From Opitutia bacterium (GTDB taxonomy: Bacteria; Verrucomicrobiota; Verrucomicrobiia; Opitutales; Opitutaceae): a DNA stretch of 64,000 nucleotides. The notes beneath the pieces are model-generated. The model saw only the letters and a list, made by a program, of their open reading frames with translations, ran no database searches and had not been told where the DNA came from. Both the position numbers and the translations under genes were made by a program. The stretch spans positions 94,710 to 158,709 of the forward strand of contig JACPPI010000005.1 in assembly GCA_016190985.1 (NCBI GenBank), written 5' to 3'. Positions 1,031 to 30,538 of the stretch are shown here, one piece after another. The first letter of the stretch is position 1. The number at the start of each line of letters is the position of its first letter.

Positions 1031-4000
1031 TTGCGCATGAGTGAATCGAGCAAGGCGGTTTTCCTTTCGTATGCCTCGCAGGATGCGGAGGCGGCGAAGC
1101 GCATTGCGGACGCGCTGCGCTCGGCCGGCGTCGAGGTGTGGTTCGACCAAAGCGAGCTGCGTGGTGGCGACGCGTGGGATGCCATGATCCGGAAGCGCAT
1201 CAAGGAATGCGCTTTGTTCGTGCCCATCATCACGCCGAACACCAACGCCCGGGCCGAGGGATACTTCCGGCTCGAATGGAAGCTCGCCGTGGACCGTTCG
1301 CACCTGATGGCGGACGACGCGCCGTTCCTGTTTCCGATCGTCATTGGCGACGTGGCCGACGCCACCGCGCGCGTGCCGGATAAATTCCGTGACGTGCAGT
1401 GGACGCGTCTGCGGCTCGACGAGACGCCGGCCGAGCTGGCGGCGCGAGTGGCGCGGCTGCTGAGCGGCGTATCGGGGGTGGGAGGGGCTTTACGCCCCGA
1501 CTCATCCAAGCCGTCGGGGCATAAAGCCCCTCCCACCGGCCATCCCGGCCGCTGGCAGTGGTGGATGATTTTTCCGATCCTCGGCATGATCGTGGGGCTC
1601 AAGTTCGCCGCGGTGCCGCTGTGGCGAAGCTTCCGCGGACCGGCCCCGAAACCGGTGGTCACCGCACAGGCACCGGACCATGTCTCCGAAGCCCGCCAGC
1701 TCGCGCAGAAGGCGGCGGCCATGAGCGTGGACAAATACAGCTCGACGGCCGACGACTACGCCGCCGCCGAGGGCCTGCTCAAGCGGGCGCTCGAGCTCGA
1801 GCAAAACGATGCTGAGATCTGGGCGATTTCGTCGATGTTGCACACCAACATCCGCACCCGTGGTTTCGACCATAACCGGGCCCGGCGTGAGTGGGCCCGG
1901 CGCGACGCGGAGCGGGCGGTAAAGCTGGACCCGAATTCACAGAACGCCTTGTTCGCCCTCGGCCGCGCGCAGCGCGACACCGATCCGGTGACCGCGGAAG
2001 CCACCTTCCAGAAGCTCCTTTCTGTGAATCCCCAAAATGCGGACGCCATGGGCCAATTGGCCTGGCTCTACGACGGCGACGGGCGCGTCGAGGAGGCGAT
2101 CAAGCTCTACGACCGGGTGCTGACGCTCGATCCGGCTGACGCCCCGCTGAACCAGTATGTCCGGTTCCTGCTGTTCTTTCACTACAGCCGCTTTGCCGAG
2201 GCGGAGCAGGCGATCCGGCGCTCGGTCGAGATGGAACCCTCCGCCAACTCCTGCGCCGGCCTCGTGATGCTGTTGCTCACGGCCAAGGGCGACGCGGAGG
2301 AATCGGCCCGGGTGTTGGCCACCGTGCCCGCGGCGTTTCGGAACGAGCCACGCATCGTGTGGGTCGAGGCCATGGCGCAGCTCTGCCGTCGCGATCCGGA
2401 GGCGGTGCTGCGGACCTTGCAGCGGCTGCAGTCCGATTACATCCAGGATAACTGGTTTGCCGGCCCAAAGGCGTATTTCGCGGGGCTGGCCCACGCGATG
2501 GCCGGGCGGGCCGAGGCGGCGCGCGTCGCCTGGCAATCAGCGTTGGCCATTGTGGACACCCGGCTGAAGGAGACGCCCGACAACCCGACCTTGCACTTGT
2601 GCCGGGGGCAGTTGCTGGCCTGGTTGGGGCAGACCGACGAGGCGAGGCGCGAGGCCCGACTGCTTGACGAAATGCGCGCGGGCCGACCAACGCGCAGTTG
2701 GTTTGACTCCATCGCCCTGATCCATGCCGCCGTGGGCGACGCCGACAAGGCCATGCCGTTGCTGGAGCAGCTCATGTCGGCCGACAACAGCACCAACGTC
2801 GGCTGGCCGCTCACGCGAGCGCTCCTCCGATTCGATCCGCGTTGGGACAAGCTGCGCGCCGACTCGCGATTCCAAAAGCTTTGTGCCGAGCCGGCCCCGT
2901 CCACCGAGAGCGACTCCTCCTTCGCCAAGGCTACGGAGGATTGGTCCGGCAAGTCATCTTTGCCGGACCAAAAATCCGTCGCCGTGCTGGCGTTCGCCAA
3001 CCTTTCCGACGACAAGGCCAACGAGTATTTCTCCGACGGCATCAGCGAGGAGCTGCTCAATGTGCTGGCGAAGATCCCCAACCTGAAGGTCTCGGCGCGG
3101 ACGTCGGCGTTTTATTTCAAGGGCAAGGAAGTGCCGGTGCCCGAGATCGCAAAGCAGCTCGGCGTGGCCTATGTGGTCGAGGGCAGCGTGCGCAAGGCCG
3201 GCGACAAGGTCCGCATCACGGCGCAGCTCATCAAGGCCGCCGACGGCTTCCACGTGTGGAGCGACACCTTCACGCGCGACCTGAAGGACATTTTCGCCGT
3301 GCAGGACGAGATCGCCGGGCTCATCGCCCGGCAGCTCCAACTCAAGCTGGGCGAGGGTGGTGCCCGCGTGGCGGTGGATCCGGCACTCTACGAACTGCTG
3401 CTCCAAGCGCGAGCTTTGACGCTGCGCGAGAGCAATGAGGACTGGCGGCAGGCGATTGCGCTTTACCGCCGCGCGCTGGAGCGGGAGTCCCGCCTAGCCC
3501 TGGCGTGGGCGGAAATGGCCCGGACCTACGTGCAGCTGGGTCGTTTTGGCGGGATGCCGACCCCCCTGGCCATGCGGGAGGCGCGCCCGGCCGCGCAACG
3601 GGCGCTGGAATTGGAACCGGATCTCGCGAGCGGCCTCGTGGCCCTGGGCTGGGTGCAACGCACAGCCGACTGGGACTGGCGAGGCGCGCGGCGATCCTTC
3701 CAGCGCGCCCTGGAGCTGGCCCCGGGAAACAGTTCCATCATGGGTGATCTGGCGGTCTTTTATTTTAATACCGGCCGCGTGGCCGAGGCGAAGACGCTGG
3801 CCCGCCAAGCCGTGGAGCGCGATCCGCTCAATGCCCGGGCCCAGGCCAGCTTGGGTTTCATTCTGAACCTGAATGGCGATTGGGAGCAAGCCTTGGCGCC
3901 GCTGGAGCAGGCGGTCGCGCTCGCCCCCGCCATCGAGGAAGTCCGTTCGCATAAGGCGCGGGCCCTGTCGATCCTGGGCAGACAGGACGAGGCCGCCGCC

Positions 4001-4327
4001 GCTGCGGAGCAGGAGCCGAACGAGGCCTACCGTCTGGCCGCGCGCGCCTTCCTGATGGGACGACCAGACCAGGCGGCAGCCAGCAACCGGGCCTTGAGCG
4101 AGTTCATCGCCAAGTATGGTGATGATATGCCAGGCTATGTGGCCAACATTTATGCGATTCGTGGCGAGGTGGACCCGGCCTTTGTCTGGCTGGAGCGCGC
4201 CTATGGCCGGCGCGACGCGGCGGTGGTCTGGGTCAAGACCAACGCTAATTGCCGTTCCCTGCACTCCGATCCCCGCTGGCCGGGATTCCTGCGCAAGGTC
4301 GGCCTGGCCGATGACCAGTTGAATTAG
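1031..4327 (+). CDS. TIR domain - TM - TPR - TolB/FlgO-like domain - TPR protein
   Basis: N-term AVFLSYASQDAEAAKRIADALRSAGVEVWFDQSELRGGDAW (TIR); TM at WWMIFPILGMIVGLKFAAV; TPR repeats; SVAVLAFANLSDDKANEYFSDGISEELLNVLAKIPNLKVSARTSAF block. Confidence 0.85.
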   Translation: MRMSESSKAVFLSYASQDAEAAKRIADALRSAGVEVWFDQSELRGGDAWDAMIRKRIKECALFVPIITPNTNARAEGYFRLEWKLAVDRSHLMADDAPFLFPIVIGDVADATARVPDKFRDVQWTRLRLDETPAELAARVARLLSGVSGVGGALRPDSSKPSGHKAPPTGHPGRWQWWMIFPILGMIVGLKFAAVPLWRSFRGPAPKPVVTAQAPDHVSEARQLAQKAAAMSVDKYSSTADDYAAAEGLLKRALELEQNDAEIWAISSMLHTNIRTRGFDHNRARREWARRDAERAVKLDPNSQNALFALGRAQRDTDPVTAEATFQKLLSVNPQNADAMGQLAWLYDGDGRVEEAIKLYDRVLTLDPADAPLNQYVRFLLFFHYSRFAEAEQAIRRSVEMEPSANSCAGLVMLLLTAKGDAEESARVLATVPAAFRNEPRIVWVEAMAQLCRRDPEAVLRTLQRLQSDYIQDNWFAGPKAYFAGLAHAMAGRAEAARVAWQSALAIVDTRLKETPDNPTLHLCRGQLLAWLGQTDEARREARLLDEMRAGRPTRSWFDSIALIHAAVGDADKAMPLLEQLMSADNSTNVGWPLTRALLRFDPRWDKLRADSRFQKLCAEPAPSTESDSSFAKATEDWSGKSSLPDQKSVAVLAFANLSDDKANEYFSDGISEELLNVLAKIPNLKVSARTSAFYFKGKEVPVPEIAKQLGVAYVVEGSVRKAGDKVRITAQLIKAADGFHVWSDTFTRDLKDIFAVQDEIAGLIARQLQLKLGEGGARVAVDPALYELLLQARALTLRESNEDWRQAIALYRRALERESRLALAWAEMARTYVQLGRFGGMPTPLAMREARPAAQRALELEPDLASGLVALGWVQRTADWDWRGARRSFQRALELAPGNSSIMGDLAVFYFNTGRVAEAKTLARQAVERDPLNARAQASLGFILNLNGDWEQALAPLEQAVALAPAIEEVRSHKARALSILGRQDEAAAAAEQEPNEAYRLAARAFLMGRPDQAAASNRALSEFIAKYGDDMPGYVANIYAIRGEVDPAFVWLERAYGRRDAAVVWVKTNANCRSLHSDPRWPGFLRKVGLADDQLN
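1478..1536. repeat. REP pair (GTGG type) inside TIR-TPR CDS
   Basis: GTGGGAGGGGCTTTACGCCCCGAC...GTCGGGGCATAAAGCCCCTCCCAC. Confidence 0.85.
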
Positions 4328-4440
4328 TCGTCGAGGAAACGCTCAATGCTGAACGTTTAACTATTAACGCCCAATTATTGAACCAGATTTCGAACACCGG
4401 AGGTTAAGACCTTGGGCGACGAACCTAATTTCAGCAGTTC

Positions 4441-4592
4441 CATTTAACCACAGATTTCACCGATCGCACGGATACAGGAATTTGCCCGGAAATAACTGTT
4501 TCAAATTCATTCACCCAACGGGTGAGAGGGCATAGAATCCGAATGGATTGAGAATCCGTGTCATCCGCGAAATCCGTGGTTTCAACGGCTTT
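4441..4592. repeat. AACCACAGATTTCACCGATCGCACGGAT inverted element
   Basis: AACCACAGATTTCACCGAT / ATCCGCGAAATCCGTGGTT. Confidence 0.8.
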
Positions 4593-18153: not shown

Positions 18154-18182
18154 GCTGATGTCAACTATTAGTTGACATCAGC
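18154..18182. repeat. Hairpin, TATTA loop
   Basis: GCTGATGTCAAC-TATTA-GTTGACATCAGC. Confidence 0.95.
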
Positions 18183-18211
18183 CGGAGCGCGCTTCCGGGA
18201 CGCGGCTTCGC

Positions 18212-18290
18212 TCATTTCAGGGCGGCGGCGAGGCGGGCGAGGGCGGTCCCGACGTTCTCACGGGAGTTGAACGTGCTGATCCGGGCATGG
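18212..18290 (-). pseudogene. Remnant of dapL-like 3' end
   Basis: Minus translation [25 protein letters not shown] versus intact dap[26 protein letters not shown] (19019..). Confidence 0.85.
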
Positions 18291-18319
18291 CGTCCGCTTT
18301 GATGCTTGCGGCCAGGCAT

Positions 18320-18339: not shown

Positions 18340-18534
18340 ATGCCCAGAAAGCTCCGCGAGCTGATTGCCGATCTCGAACGGGCCGGCTTCGTCAACCGGG
18401 GTGGCAAGGGCAGCCATCGCAATTTCGTCCACCCGCGCGGCCTGCGCGTCACCCTTTCCGGCCAGGCAGGAGCAGACGCGCGACACTATCAGGAGAAGGA
18501 AGTCCGTCAGAAGATAAACCTCACCCGCTCATGA
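18340..18534 (+). CDS. hicA: HicA-family mRNA interferase toxin
   Basis: MPRKLRELIADLERAGFVNRGGKGSHRNFVHPRGLRVTLSG; overlaps hicB by 4 nt. Confidence 0.88.
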   Translation: MPRKLRELIADLERAGFVNRGGKGSHRNFVHPRGLRVTLSGQAGADARHYQEKEVRQKINLTRS

Positions 18535-18893
18535 AAACTCCCGCCCGTAAAAACCAAACCCCGGCGCAGCTCGCCCGCCGTTATCTCAAGCTCGTGGAAT
18601 GGTCCGAGGCCGACGGCTGCTTCGTGGGCAGTGCTCCGCCCATCATCGGTCCCTGCTGTCACGGTCGCACCGAGGCGGAGGTCATGGCCCAGCTGAGCGC
18701 CATCGTCGAGGAATGGGTGGAGATCATGCTCGGCGACGGCCATCCGCTGCCGACGGGCACGGCGGGGAAAAAATACAGCGGACAGTTTGTCGTCCGGGTC
18801 GCGCCCGAGCTGCACAAAAAGGCCTCGCTCAAGGCGCTGGCGCGCGGCGAAAGCCTGAATCAGTTTGTCGCCTCCGCCCTGGCTGAGGCTTGA
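18531..18893 (+). CDS. hicB: HicB-family antitoxin
   Basis: VEWSEADGCFVGSAPPIIGPCCHGRTEAEV...FVVRVAPELHKKASLKALARGESLNQFVASAL. Confidence 0.88.
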   Translation: MKTPARKNQTPAQLARRYLKLVEWSEADGCFVGSAPPIIGPCCHGRTEAEVMAQLSAIVEEWVEIMLGDGHPLPTGTAGKKYSGQFVVRVAPELHKKASLKALARGESLNQFVASALAEA

Positions 18894-18931: not shown

Positions 18932-18966
18932 CGGGCTGATGTCAACTAATAGTTGACATCAGCCCG
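18932..18966. repeat. Hairpin, TAATA loop
   Basis: CGGGCTGATGTCAAC-TAATA-GTTGACATCAGCCCG. Confidence 0.95.
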
Positions 18967-19018: not shown

Positions 19019-20242
19019 TTATTTCAGCGCGGCGGCGAGGCGGGCAAGGGCGGTCTCGACGTTCTCGCGGGAGTTGAAGGCGCTGATGCGCACGTGGCCT
19101 TCGCCGCACTTGCCGAAGCCGGCGCCGGGCGTGCAGACGACCTGCGCCTTGGTCAGCAGCAGGTCGAAGAACTCCCAGGAGGCGCGGCCGGTGTTGACCC
19201 AGAGGTAGGGCGCGTCGTCGCCGCCGATGCAGGCCAGGCCGAGTTTGGTCACCGCGTCGCGGATGAGCTTGGCGTTGCCGAGGTAGAAGTCGGTGAGCGC
19301 GCGCGTCTGCTTCTGCCCCTCGGGCGAGTAGGCGGCGAGGGCGGCTTTCTGCACGGGGTAGGCCACGCCGTTGAACTTCGTCGTGTGGCGGCGATACCAG
19401 AGCGCGTGCACGGAGTGTTCCTTCCCGGCGGCGTCGCGGGCCTTGAGGTTTTTCGGCACGACCGTGTAGGCGCAGCGCAGGCCGGTGAAGCCGGCGAGCT
19501 TGGAGTAGCTGCGGAACTCGATGGCGACGTCGCGCGCGCCCTCGATTTCGTAGATGGAGCGCGGGATGCCCGGGGTGCGGACGTAGGCTTCGTAGGCGGC
19601 GTCGAAGAGGATGATCGCGCGGTGCTGCCTGGCGTAGGCGACCCACGCGGCGAGCTGGGCCCGGGTGGCGACCGCGCCGGTCGGGTTGTTGGGGAAGCAA
19701 AGATAGATGAGGTCGGCGGGCGTCGGGGGCGGCGCGGGCACGTAGCCGTTGGCCGCGGTCGAATCGAGGTAGGTGATGCCGGCGTAGCGGCCGTCCACGT
19801 TGGCGCCGGTGCGACCGGCCATGACGTTGGTGTCGACGTAGACGGGATAAACCGGGTCGGGGATCGCGAGCTTGGTGTCGGGGGCGAAGATTTCCTGGAT
19901 GTTGGCGATGTCGCACTTCGAGCCGTCGCTGATGAACACCTCGTCGGGGTCGACCTTGGCGCCGTGGGCGGCGTAGTCGTGCTGCGCGACGGCCTCCCGC
20001 AGGAAGGCATAGCCTTCGCCGGGGCCGTAACCCTTGAACGTGGCACGGTGCGCCAGCTCGTCGGTCGCGGCGTGCAGCGCCGCGATGCACACCGGCGGCA
20101 GCGGCTCGGTGACATCGCCGATGCCGAGGCGGATGACCGGCTTGCCCGGGTTGGCGGCGACGTAGGCGTTCACGCGCTTGGCGATGTCGGCGAAAAGATA
20201 GGAGGCCTTGAGTTTCGAGTAGTGTTCGTTGAGGCGGAGCAT
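19019..20242 (-). CDS. dapL: LL-diaminopimelate aminotransferase
   Basis: [41 protein letters not shown]...FPNNPTGAV...[16 protein letters not shown]. Confidence 0.93.
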
Positions 20243-20251
20243 GGGAAGGAA

Positions 20252-24942: not shown

Positions 24943-25161
24943 ATGAGCACATGGGAAACCATCGTCGAGGAATTGCGCACTTTGCCCGCGCCAAAACTGG
25001 CGGAGGCTGCCGCTTTGATCCATGGCTTGCGTGAGCGCGCGCGCGCCGATCGGCTGGCGGCGCTGGAGCGAAGCGCGGGAATCCTGACCGACGAGGAAGG
25101 CGCGGAGCTGGAGCGTGTGATCGAGGAAGGCTGCGAAAAGATCGATGCCCGCGACTGGTAA
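24943..25161 (+). CDS. Small antitoxin-like protein (VapB position)
   Basis: 72 aa ORF overlapping downstream PIN toxin by 17 nt. Confidence 0.65.
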   Translation: MSTWETIVEELRTLPAPKLAEAAALIHGLRERARADRLAALERSAGILTDEEGAELERVIEEGCEKIDARDW

Positions 25162-25543
25162 AGTCGTGGTTGATACCTCGGTGGTCGTGGCCGTATTGCG
25201 CCGCGTGCCCGGCTTGAGAGAGCGGCTGCACCACGCGGAGGAACTGCTGGTGCCGCTCGTGGCGCCGGGTGAGTTGGAATATGGAGTGAATCTGGCCACG
25301 CCGCCGGAACGGCAGCGCGAAGCGGTGCGGACGTTCATGGAAAGTGCGACGCTGCTTTTGCCGACGGCACGCACCGCCGCGGAATACGGGCGAATGAAAG
25401 CCGGGTTGAAAGCGGCGGGCACGCCCCTGCCGGAAAACGACATCTGGATCGCCGCCTTTGCCGTCGAACACGGCCTGCCTCTGGCCACGCGCGACACACA
25501 CTTTGCCCGTGTGGCCGGCCTGACCGTGCTGGACTGGCGCTGA
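25145..25543 (+). CDS. PIN domain toxin, VapC-like
   Basis: VVVDTSVVVAVLRR...LPENDIWIAAFAVEHGLPLATRDTHFARVAGLTVLDW. Confidence 0.88.
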   Translation: MPATGKVVVDTSVVVAVLRRVPGLRERLHHAEELLVPLVAPGELEYGVNLATPPERQREAVRTFMESATLLLPTARTAAEYGRMKAGLKAAGTPLPENDIWIAAFAVEHGLPLATRDTHFARVAGLTVLDWR

Positions 25544-25886: not shown

Positions 25887-26828
25887 ATGAAAACGACGCG
25901 CGCCCTGCTTGTCTTATTCTCAGCGATGGCGGCGACCATCGCTTCGGCCCAAGTCCAATTCGTATTCGTGGAGAAGCAGGTGCAATATACGCAAAACAGT
26001 GCGTCTGCTCCTTCGGTTGCCTCAGGCAGTCCTTATGTTTTCAAATTCGCCATTAACGGAGCTGGCGCAAACAGTCTTGCTGGATATACGACGGTTCAAA
26101 TATTTACTACGGCATTCGGAAGTGGCGTTTCTGGTCCACTCAACGCGACAACATATAATCCTACTGAGGATAATTGGGAAATGACTCCATTAACATATGG
26201 ATCACTTGGGGCACTAGATACCGCCTTTGCCAATGGACTTTACGCGGTAAAATTAAATACAACCACGCAAGATGTTACTTTGGGTGGCGGACTAGGGCCT
26301 AGTTATACTGATGTCTTTCCCGCTGCTGCACCAATGGTGACTGGATTGTCGGCAGGAAACTTTGATGGACTCGGGCAGTTGAAGATCAATTTGGCGCTCA
26401 ATAGTTACACATTTAATTTGAACGGGCTCGCGGGCTATCCGTCAGGGGGCCATGTCGGGATTTTTCTCAATGGCGTCAATGAGCCTTCTTTTGTCAGTGG
26501 CAACAATCCGGGTGGTGAAGTGCGAGCTGAGTCGATAAAGCTTGGCACAAACAATGACCCTGAAGTGACGTTCCTGACCTTTAATCCGAGTGCAAGCAAC
26601 ATGGTGCTTGGGCAAACCTACACTCTCGAAATTGAATACAATCTCGCGCTTAATACGGCCTCGAACCTCTTTGGAGGAGGAGCCGGGGAGCTTGACCTCG
26701 GATTATTCACGTATCGCACACAACTGACCCTGATCGCCGTCCCCGAGCCCTCGACCTATGCGGCGATCTTTGGCGGCGTGGCCTTGGCGGGCGTGATGCT
26801 CCATCGCCGCCGGCGTGCGTCGGCCTGA
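25887..26828 (+). CDS. PEP-CTERM sorting domain protein
   Basis: Signal peptide; C-terminus VPEPSTYAAIFGGVALAGVMLHRRRRASA. Confidence 0.92.
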   Translation: MKTTRALLVLFSAMAATIASAQVQFVFVEKQVQYTQNSASAPSVASGSPYVFKFAINGAGANSLAGYTTVQIFTTAFGSGVSGPLNATTYNPTEDNWEMTPLTYGSLGALDTAFANGLYAVKLNTTTQDVTLGGGLGPSYTDVFPAAAPMVTGLSAGNFDGLGQLKINLALNSYTFNLNGLAGYPSGGHVGIFLNGVNEPSFVSGNNPGGEVRAESIKLGTNNDPEVTFLTFNPSASNMVLGQTYTLEIEYNLALNTASNLFGGGAGELDLGLFTYRTQLTLIAVPEPSTYAAIFGGVALAGVMLHRRRRASA

Positions 26829-26852: not shown

Positions 26853-26879
26853 AGCCGGGCCGAGGGGTCCGGCTTTTTG
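26853..26879 (+). terminator. Terminator-like hairpin, copy 1 (AGCCGGGCCGAGGGGTCCGGCTTTTTG)
   Basis: Stem GCCGG/CCGGC plus T5; 27-nt identical copy at 27751. Confidence 0.8.
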
Positions 26880-26970
26880 CTTCTCTTTCCGCGAATGGCA
26901 CGGATAGACGCGGATGGTTTGGGCTCCATCCGTTTTATCCGCGTGATCCGCGGTTGAAGTATTTTCTTAA

Positions 26971-27072
26971 TCACTCTTTACCGTCGTTGTAATCCACCTT
27001 GGTGATGCGGAAGAATTTTCCGTGAGGCCGCAGGTCCCGCTTGCCCGAGCCGGGATAGTAAAAAATGTCGAC
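26971..27072 (-). pseudogene. Remnant of cupin gene 3' end
   Basis: Minus translation VDIFYYPGSGKRDLRPHGKFFRITKVDYNDGKE*, ungapped 16/33 identity by hand to C-terminus of intact cupin at 27872. Confidence 0.8.
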
Positions 27073-27074
27073 TG

Positions 27075-27578
27075 GTGGGAGCGGTCGCGGCATGCATCCG
27101 ACGATGCACGCGCTTTCGCTCTATCTTGGATACATCGGTGATCGGCGGCTATTTCGACGCCGAATTCCTGGCCGATACCCGTGCCCTGTGGCGATTGAAG
27201 GAAGCGGGTCGGTTCCGGTTCATCTTGTCCGTGTTGGTGGACCAGGAAATTGCGCGAGCACCGGAGCTGGTGCGGACACTCCTGCGCGACACCTTTGATC
27301 CGGCCGACATACTGCCCATGACCACAGAGGCGTTGGAGTTGGCGGGGTATTATCTCGCCCACCGGGTTGTGCCGGCGACTTACACCGATGATGCCCGCCA
27401 TGTGGCGGTATGCACGGTGGCGCGCCTCGATTACCTTGTAAGCTGGAACTTCAAGCACCTGGCCAATGTCCGGCGGGAGTCGGGCTTCAATGCGGTAAAC
27501 CTCTTGCAAGGCTACCCGCCGGTGCGCATTGTAGCCCCAACCTTTCTCATCCATGGCCACGAAGAAAAAGACCTTTGA
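27075..27578 (+). CDS. PIN-domain protein (start uncertain)
   Basis: ILDTSVIGGYFD...YTDDARHVAVCTVARLDYLVSWNFKHLANV. Confidence 0.8.
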   Translation: MGAVAACIRRCTRFRSILDTSVIGGYFDAEFLADTRALWRLKEAGRFRFILSVLVDQEIARAPELVRTLLRDTFDPADILPMTTEALELAGYYLAHRVVPATYTDDARHVAVCTVARLDYLVSWNFKHLANVRRESGFNAVNLLQGYPPVRIVAPTFLIHGHEEKDL

Positions 27579-27735
27579 CGCCGTTGCCTCGTCCCGCCGC
27601 TGGCGGCAGGCGACCAGCAAGCTCTTGAACAAGATGACTCCGGAGGAGCAGATGGCTTTCTTGAACCGTCGGCTCGCCCACTGGCCCGCTGCGACCAAAC
27701 CCCGGCGCGCCCGCAGGCTGGTGGCAGCCCACTAA
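27553..27735 (+). CDS. Small basic protein, candidate partner of upstream PIN protein
   Basis: MATKKKTFDAVASSRRWRQATSKLLNKMTPEEQMAFLNRRL; overlaps PIN ORF. Confidence 0.6.
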   Translation: MATKKKTFDAVASSRRWRQATSKLLNKMTPEEQMAFLNRRLAHWPAATKPRRARRLVAAH

Positions 27736-27750
27736 GCGCGCTTCATTTCC

Positions 27751-27777
27751 AGCCGGGCCGAGGGGTCCGGCTTTTTG
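27751..27777 (+). terminator. Terminator-like hairpin, copy 2 (identical 27 nt)
   Basis: AGCCGGGCCGAGGGGTCCGGCTTTTTG. Confidence 0.8.
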
Positions 27778-27793
27778 TTTGGGCGGATTGGCG

Positions 27794-27862
27794 GTAGGAG
27801 CGGCTTTATGCCGCGATAAAACTCACACCGGAGAGCCAATCACGGCGTAAAGCCGCTCCTAC
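27794..27862. repeat. REP pair (GTAG type)
   Basis: GTAGGAGCGGCTTTATGCCGCGAT...ATCACGGCGTAAAGCCGCTCCTAC. Confidence 0.9.
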
Positions 27863-27871
27863 CCAGAGCGA

Positions 27872-28345
27872 TCACTCCTCGCCGTCGAAGTAATCGACCT
27901 CGCTGATCCGGAAGAAGCGCCGCGGACGGGGTGTGCCCCATTTCTTGGAGTCGGGATAATGAAAGCTGTCGTGCGGCGGATTGTCGGCGATGAGATAGAA
28001 CACGAGGTCGCGCCGGCCCGTGTTGATGATCTGGTGCGCCTCGCCGGGCGGATGCATGAAGACATCGCCGGCCTTCACCCGGTGGCGCTGCTTGCCGGCG
28101 CGGACCGTCGCGGTGCCGCTGACGATGAGGAACAGCTCCCATTGCGCCGTGTGGCTGTGGAAGGGACACGACGCCTTGCCGGGCGGGATTTTCTCGATCT
28201 CCAGGTTGAACGGGTGGCCCTTCTTCGGCCAGCCGCCGCGCACGTCGCCGAGGGCGGCGGAGATGTCCTTGTAGGATTGGGCGTATTTGCCTTTGGGCGA
28301 TTTCCAGTGCGACCACTTAAGTTGGGCGAGGTTGGTCTTTTTCAT
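27872..28345 (-). CDS. Cupin domain protein
   Basis: PFHSHTAQWELFLIVSGTATVRAGKQRHRVKAGDVFMHPPGEAHQIIN. Confidence 0.88.
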   Translation of the reverse strand: MKKTNLAQLKWSHWKSPKGKYAQSYKDISAALGDVRGGWPKKGHPFNLEIEKIPPGKASCPFHSHTAQWELFLIVSGTATVRAGKQRHRVKAGDVFMHPPGEAHQIINTGRRDLVFYLIADNPPHDSFHYPDSKKWGTPRPRRFFRISEVDYFDGEE

Positions 28346-28435: not shown

Positions 28436-28528
28436 GTTAACCGCTAATTGGCGCTTATCCTCGCTAATAAACCCCAAGGCCTGTCAGTGCATCCTTTATT
28501 AGCGACAATTAGCGCAGATTAGCGGTTA
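28436..28528. repeat. GTTAACCGCTAATTGGCGC...GCGCAGATTAGCGGTTAA inverted element
   Basis: Long inverted repeat in cupin/FAH hydrolase intergenic region. Confidence 0.85.
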
Positions 28529-28531
28529 AAT

Positions 28532-29376: not shown

Positions 29377-29949
29377 TCAGTGAGATTGAATCAGGCGATG
29401 ATGAATTCGCCAGAATAACTCCCAATAGTCTTCACGGCAGAGGTCGAGATCGGGATAGCCTGCGACACAGGCCCCAGTGAAAGGATAATCCTGCCAGCGG
29501 GCGACTAACTTGGCTCGGACGGGATTTTCGAGGATGTAGTTTGCCACCGCAAGAAATGCCCCGGGCAAGGTCTCGCTGCCACGCAGAACCCGGTCATGCA
29601 CCTGGTGCTGCCATTGGGCCGGCGCCAATTCCGGCCGAAGATGTTTGCGGGCGAATTCGATAGCAACCCGCTGGTCTGACTCAGGGCCGAGCCCCAGCCA
29701 GAGCAGGTGCATGTGATCCGGCATGAGCACATAGGCGGGGCACGCCAGACCGTAACGGGCGCAGGCATGGAGAAGGGTCTCGCGAAAGTGAGAGAGGAAG
29801 CCGGGCGTCAACCAGCCGGTAGCACGATCCTCCAGGGTGAGCGTCCAGTGAACGGCCACCAAGCCGCGATAGGTTTCGGGTGCCAGTCGCGGCAGGTGCG
29901 ATTTGTCCACTCGCTCACGCTCGTGGCTACTTTCGGAGATCGGATTCAT
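29377..29949 (-). mobile_element. REP-associated tyrosine transposase (RAYT/Y1_Tnp-like HUH protein)
   Basis: VLMPDHMHLLWLG (HUH), FLAVANYILENPVRAKLVARWQDYPFTG. Confidence 0.85.
29907..29930 (-). repeat. REP element flanking RAYT, right inverted copy
   Basis: CCACTCGCTCACGCTCGTGGCTAC. Confidence 0.85.
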
Positions 29950-29979: not shown

Positions 29980-30465
29980 TCACAAAGCCAAGCGAGAGCG
30001 AAACATTCTGGCGAGGCCCGTTTTGTCCATGCGCTTCTCGGCGATGGCGATCATGGCGTCGTAGAGCTGGGCGTTTGTGACGGCCGAGGTTGAAACACAG
30101 TTGAGTTCCAAAAAGGCCAGCGCGGTGGTGATGGCAGTGCGCTTGTTGCCATCGATGAAAGGCTGGTTTTCAGCGATGTGATAGGCGTAGGCGGCTGCGA
30201 GGTCGAACAGGTCACCTTGCGCGTAGAAGAACGCGTTCATCGGCTGGGCGAGGGCTGACTCCAGGCCGTGTTCATTCCTGATGCCATCCTGACCGCCGTG
30301 TTGTTCGAGGGAGAGTCGGTGTAGCGCATCAACCCTGGTCCGGGTGATGAAACAGGCTCGTTCACTGGGCCAGTTTTCGCAGCAACTCTTTGCGCTCGGC
30401 AAAAATCTTCTCGGTGACGCGCTGGAAGGCGGCATCATCCGACGGGCGGGGCTGGGCCGGTGCAA
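29980..30465 (-). CDS. Fic/Doc family toxin (start uncertain)
   Basis: LESALAQPMN...AYHIAENQPFIDGNKRTAITTALAFLELN. Confidence 0.85.
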   Translation of the reverse strand: MHRPSPARRMMPPSSASPRRFLPSAKSCCENWPSERACFITRTRVDALHRLSLEQHGGQDGIRNEHGLESALAQPMNAFFYAQGDLFDLAAAYAYHIAENQPFIDGNKRTAITTALAFLELNCVSTSAVTNAQLYDAMIAIAEKRMDKTGLARMFRSRLAL

Positions 30466-30538
30466 GCGCCGCCTGCACCGGTTTCTTGGCGGTGTAGGGG
30501 GTGGCGGCTTCCTCGACCTTGTGCGGCTTCTTGCTCAC
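30362..30538 (-). CDS. Candidate antitoxin upstream of Doc (GTG start, not in ORF track)
   Basis: VSKKPHKVEEAATPYTAKKPVQAALAPAQPRPSDDAAFQRVTEKIFAERKELLRKLAQ*; overlaps doc. Confidence 0.55.
   Translation of the reverse strand: MSKKPHKVEEAATPYTAKKPVQAALAPAQPRPSDDAAFQRVTEKIFAERKELLRKLAQ

Follow-up and report, generated by a model that had tools for sequence, protein, structure and literature searches.

The analysed window comprises 64,000 nucleotides of the Opitutia bacterium assembly GCA_016190985.1 (contig JACPPI010000005.1, positions 94,710 to 158,709), a genome of 2.95 Mb. Genomes of relatives are designated by G numbers, and DNA stretches taken from this or other genomes by L numbers.

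The cupin and dapL loci

The cupin locus contains, from left to right, a PEP-CTERM protein gene, a 27-nt terminator, a REP-like palindrome, the 3′ remnant of a cupin gene, a gene for a PIN-domain toxin-like protein, an overlapping small basic ORF, a second identical copy of the terminator, another palindrome, and the intact cupin gene (Table 1). The terminator sequence AGCCGGGCCGAGGGGTCCGGCTTTTTG is present in both copies without mismatches. No third copy with up to 3 mismatches was found in the window, where none is expected after shuffling, or in the whole genome. Only two other hairpins with the same outer stem exist in the genome, and they differ inside. The arrangement described in the initial annotation, a PIN module between a cupin remnant and the intact cupin with the same terminator on both sides, is therefore confirmed, and so is the corresponding layout of the dapL/hicAB locus. 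At the latter, the two hairpins are identical at 29 of 30 positions, and the dapL 3′ end in the remnant is 86% identical over 84 nt. The remnant of the cupin, initially placed at 26971–27072, can be read on to about 27078 (PPVDI...).

Table 1. Features of the cupin and dapL loci and neighbouring elements (window coordinates)
Position	Strand	Feature	Basis
25890–26828	+	PEP-CTERM protein gene, left native neighbour	PF07589 match; 66% identical to the gene at the same place in G037
26853–26879	+	Terminator copy 1	Native single copy, in variant form, in relatives
26971–27078	-	Cupin 3′ remnant, class-B tail	Tail comparison
27068–27072		TCGAC, possible microhomology at the left junction	Shared by cupin codons V-D and the box upstream of PIN modules
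27104–27578	+	PIN-domain toxin-like gene, frameshifted at 27128/27129	Alignment with relatives, predicted structure
27553–27735	+	Small basic ORF, presumed partner	Conserved with PIN in relatives; no family match
27751–27777	+	Terminator copy 2	Identical to copy 1
27793–27863		REP-like palindrome next to the intact cupin	Same class as in G037
27872–28345	-	Intact cupin, class-A tail	PF07883 match
18154–18183		dapL locus hairpin copy 1	Single in the G200 empty site
18217–18297	-	dapL 3′ remnant	Comparison with dapL
18340–18893	+	hicAB	PF07927 and PF05534 matches
18935–18964		dapL locus hairpin copy 2	Comparison with copy 1
19024–20247	-	Intact dapL	Orthologues 79–91% in 19 genomes of the genus
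26891–26956, 27793–27863, 28437–28529 and 29377–29949		Several different REP-like palindromes in the intergenic regions, with a gene nearby that looks like a REP-associated transposase (RAYT)	
24943–25543 and 29980–30538		Two further TA-like modules: a vapBC-like pair and a Fic/Doc-like gene with a small upstream ORF	The vapBC-like one showed no strong flanking repeat

The assignment of the PIN protein is weak on the sequence level. The Pfam match has an E value of 0.045 in this genome, which is below the cut-off, and the best value in the family is 5e-4. A sequence-profile search of the PDB with the PIN family gave no result. The predicted structure, however, shows a PIN fold (pLDDT 87), and a fold search of the PDB returned VapC and FitB among the top hits. 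The acidic residues D9, E48 and D96 are invariant or nearly invariant. The PIN gene contains one extra G at 27128/27129, 8 codons after the ATG at 27104 and just before the first catalytic Asp, which is absent from all 12 aligned relatives. The toxin is thus probably broken, unless a weak GTG (27075) or TTG start is used or the additional base is an assembly error. The small ORF, which recurs together with the PIN gene in relatives, is presumed to be its partner.

The order OPT transporter – PEP-CTERM – cupin – FAH hydrolase – gcvP is conserved in much of the genus. When the cupin locus was aligned to G037, a relative with an empty site, the left and right flanks of the PIN insertion overlapped by about 222 nt, showing that the terminator, the spacer and the cupin 3′ end are duplicated. 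The same comparison of dapL/hicAB with G200, which has one hairpin and no hicAB, gave a duplication of about 164 nt. The terminator was initially regarded as being supplied with the inserted module. This is not supported, since it is the native terminator of the PEP-CTERM/cupin junction and occurs there once, in variant form, in G037, G071, G147 and G204.

The cupin remnant is not a recent copy of the present cupin tail. The two tails are 48% identical in protein and 64% in DNA. The remnant carries a class-B tail, with DNA identities of 0.75–0.76 to G071, G170 and G047, and the intact gene carries a class-A tail, with 0.79–0.81 to G037 and G147, while the identity between the two is only 0.61–0.64. 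The palindrome beside the remnant is not of the class found in G037. The cupin of this genome and that of G200 agree at 0.83 in the body but at 0.52 in the last 26 codons (Fisher p=3e-8), although either genome could be the recombinant. Tails thus appear to be exchanged between species at this gene.

Flanking repeats at toxin-antitoxin loci

The initial annotation would have been contradicted if no other TA module in the genome were flanked by duplicated ends of adjacent genes. To clarify this, 19 PIN and HicA loci of the genome were examined, and 4 of them showed strong direct repeats on both sides. These repeats are the dapL 3′ end (hicAB), the transaldolase 3′ end (vapBC), the ArsR-methyltransferase 3′ end (vapBC), and the mmsA 5′ end (DUF433/DUF5615). 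The cupin locus is a fifth case, which was not counted because its PIN gene is below the Pfam cut-off. Across the genus, 33 of 106 testable PIN/HicA loci have same-strand repeats of at least 70% identity and 40 nt within 1.5 kb on both sides. Such repeats were found at 3 of 98 conserved-gene loci (odds ratio 14, p=3e-8) and in 30 of 421 sliding windows, which are mostly tandem paralogues. The main weakness of this comparison is that the conserved-gene control is not matched to accessory genes and that the loci are not fully independent.

Most of the assignable repeats are 3′ ends of the adjacent gene (tgt, gltX, dciA, spoU, creD, tal, dapL), and a few are 5′ ends (mmsA, hrpB, an epimerase). 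An EamA transporter and an HlyD protein are also among the target genes, while some flanking repeats of the survey have no clear gene. In 15 of 17 scored 3′ cases the similarity stops within 20 nt of the stop codon. The differences between remnant and intact end are biased to synonymous sites, with pN/pS of 0.31 overall and 0.26–0.28 at four loci of this genome and no stop codons, although individual pairs range widely. Much of the divergence therefore arose while both copies were functional. The transaldolase remnant is slightly closer to G071 (126/146) than to its own gene (122/146), but this difference is too small to rely on.

Several gene ends have been used in two species. dapL carries HicAB here and a DUF433/PIN-like pair in G037, with breakpoints within a few codons of each other. 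The mmsA 5′ end carries a ParE-like toxin with an addiction-module antitoxin in G187 (L358, 2633–3166) and DUF433/DUF5615 in the present genome, where the tail of the G187-type antitoxin is still found (contig C24, L176, 1777–1894; 75% DNA identity over 88 nt). One TA has apparently replaced another inside an old scar. At ArsR-methyltransferase the remnant and the TA together are shared by this genome and G200 (76% over 753 nt, against 89% for the gene), which indicates an inherited scar. The spoU gene (G037, G207) and hrpB (G037, G203) are also hit in two species.

Around relatives of this PIN protein in other genomes and phyla, 16 of 55 testable loci also have such repeats, a few of which are of low complexity. 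Clear gene-end cases are L137 (Ignavibacteria), L143 (Spirochaetes), L104 (Treponema) and L110 (Cyclobacteriaceae). In L110, a 250-nt repeat of 99.2% identity (3183–3433 and 4270–4520) spans the 3′ ends of two convergent genes around a PIN module, each intact on its own side, and is apparently a very recent insertion.

Origin of the duplicated gene ends

The interpretation given in the initial annotation, a common integration route by which selfish modules insert beyond the stop codon of a conserved gene with a replacement 3′ end and terminator supplied, is supported in part. An integration footprint shared by unrelated TA modules and a replacement gene end, as seen in the two cupin tail alleles, are supported. 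Restriction to positions beyond a stop codon is not, since 5′ ends are also hit, and neither is a fixed orientation, since the vapBC at the ArsR-methyltransferase locus lies on the gene's own strand. No dedicated integration machinery was seen, and ordinary one-sided recombination plus addiction would explain the pattern.

We propose, with a probability of roughly 0.58, that chromosomal TA modules in this genus, and probably more widely, are acquired on donor DNA carrying the module plus the end of the gene beside it. The conserved gene end would supply homology for one crossover, while the other end would join illegitimately, or the fragment would first circularise and enter by one crossover. 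The product would keep a full-length gene whose end comes from the donor, followed by the intergenic DNA of the donor and the TA module, and then the displaced gene end of the recipient as a remnant with the recipient's own intergenic DNA. In the cupin case, the remnant with the class-B tail and the left palindrome would be of recipient origin, and the PIN gene, small ORF, terminator, right palindrome and class-A tail would represent the donor side. The direct repeats would normally let the insert loop out again, but loss of an addiction module would harm the cell, so that TA insertions would persist as scarred loci and could later swap one TA for another. The duplicated gene ends, the empty sites, the enrichment around TA genes, the allele difference of the cupin tails, the tail mosaic between this cupin and that of G200, and the reuse of gene ends with different TAs have been shown. 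The recombination route, the polarity of donor and recipient and the role of addiction in retention are inferred, as are the toxicity of the PIN protein and its neutralization by the small ORF product.

The end of similarity near stop codons is expected if two orthologous ends with unrelated intergenic DNA were joined. The 5-nt TCGAC at the left junction of the cupin locus would agree with a non-homologous junction, which often lies at microhomology, but it is a single case and could be due to chance. Some observations fit less well. The two terminators of the cupin locus are identical (27/27) although the cupin tails differ strongly, which requires a donor of the same species with another tail, gene conversion, or a separate duplication of the terminator. 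The PEP-CTERM gene next to the class-B remnant resembles that of the class-A genome G037, so that the polarity is not clean. No donor genome with the TA plus the same tail was found. Neutral decay alone is disfavoured by the pN/pS values, but it also contributes, as is evident from the inherited scar at ArsR-methyltransferase.

An insertion with long target duplication, in which an unknown transposition-like or break-repair event copies 50–250 nt of the target in situ and the remnant later decays by mutation, is unlikely as the general explanation but remains possible, above all for repeats of high identity, and both routes may operate. It is in agreement with the empty-site comparisons and with cases of high identity such as G161 (97% over 116 nt), G037 (93–94%) and L110, and very similar cases (G037 dapL, L110) fit it equally well. 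A DNA methylase-like gene with a small HTH-like ORF in G037 (L061, 9710–12160), flanked by a 119-nt repeat of 98% identity, also looks like this footprint. However, simple decay of an in-situ copy predicts neither that similarity respects stop codons and synonymous sites nor that the cupin remnant belongs to another allele class than the intact tail.

For the cupin locus only, the remnant could be the end of a second tandem cupin that was partly replaced by the PIN module. Two-domain cupin genes of 340–424 aa occur at this locus in the genus (G093, G161) and across the family, each domain with its own DYFDGEE-type tail in several relatives (L067, 6601–7620; L068, 7070–8149; L072, 2158–3174). 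This is considered improbable, since G037, G147, G071 and G204 have one cupin and one terminator here, the duplicated terminator and the other TA loci are left unexplained, and the remnant resembles single-cupin class-B tails (0.74–0.76 for G071, G047, G170 and G059) better than second-domain tails (0.63–0.69). Still less probable is a dedicated site-specific route, such as an attachment site in gene ends used by a recombinase acting in trans, which would be the strong form of the idea in the initial annotation. The targeting of gene ends, the genes hit in two species (dapL, mmsA, ArsR-methyltransferase, spoU, hrpB) and the close dapL breakpoints would agree with it. However, no shared core sequence was apparent among the targets, repeat lengths vary from about 40 to 530 nt, both 5′ and 3′ ends are used, the TA families are unrelated, at least one shared site is an inherited scar, and no recombinase gene lies in the cupin or dapL inserts, the cupin interval 26880–27750 encoding only PIN and the small ORF. 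Chance similarity is very unlikely despite the families of REP-like palindromes in the genome, given that no match to the terminator is expected after shuffling, and given the enrichment over two controls and the empty sites in relatives.

A broader possibility, which we regard as tentative, is that single-crossover insertions beside conserved genes are a general entry route for small DNA that is normally lost again through its own direct repeats. Addiction modules would then be the inserts that survive, duplicated gene ends would be a legible fossil record of TA acquisition across phyla, and TA modules would travel between species on the ends of housekeeping genes. How chromosomal TA modules without any mobile element enter genomes and stay there is a long-standing question. 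A scar found at about a third of the sampled PIN/HicA loci in this genus, with similar scars at related PIN loci in other phyla, would let acquisition, donor and age be read from sequence, and would link TA modules and restriction-modification (RM) genes under the idea that single-crossover inserts survive when they are addictive.

Comparison with known systems

The predicted PIN fold and acidic active site are shared with VapC toxins. In contrast to the DNA-binding antitoxin encoded upstream in VapBC systems, the presumed partner is a small basic ORF downstream of the toxin gene with no known antitoxin domain.

One homologous and one non-homologous end are characteristic of homology-facilitated illegitimate recombination (HFIR). 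In an E. coli study of HFIR, most events were in fact single crossovers of circularised fragments, which produced 109–950 bp duplications of a gene end (PMC3240628, and the transformation papers it cites). These were laboratory events without a TA module, and they have not been shown in this phylum. HFIR-like displacement has also been proposed for T6SS effector-immunity modules in Vibrio (PMC5361080), where toxin-immunity modules enter next to a conserved anchor, replace one another successively and leave displaced remnants. There the remnants are immunity genes within T6SS clusters and not ends of unrelated housekeeping genes. A literature search for TA together with HFIR gave no papers, and searches for TA insertions with duplicated gene ends, limited to open-access literature, gave no matching description.

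The closest known footprint is the insertion with long target duplication reported for RM systems (Nobusato et al. 2000; Furuta et al. 2010; reviewed in PMC3874152). In both cases an addiction-type module without a linked mobile element is flanked by a variable direct repeat of the order of 100 bp, and relatives hold an empty site with one copy of the target. The footprint itself is thus already known. What differs here is that the inserted units are type II TA systems (PIN, HicAB, DUF433/DUF5615, ParE-like) and not RM systems, that the two repeat copies at the cupin locus do not derive from one target allele, although a single allele is not excluded for high-identity cases elsewhere, and that the repeats are ends of conserved genes, often divergent alleles, and are seen genus-wide.
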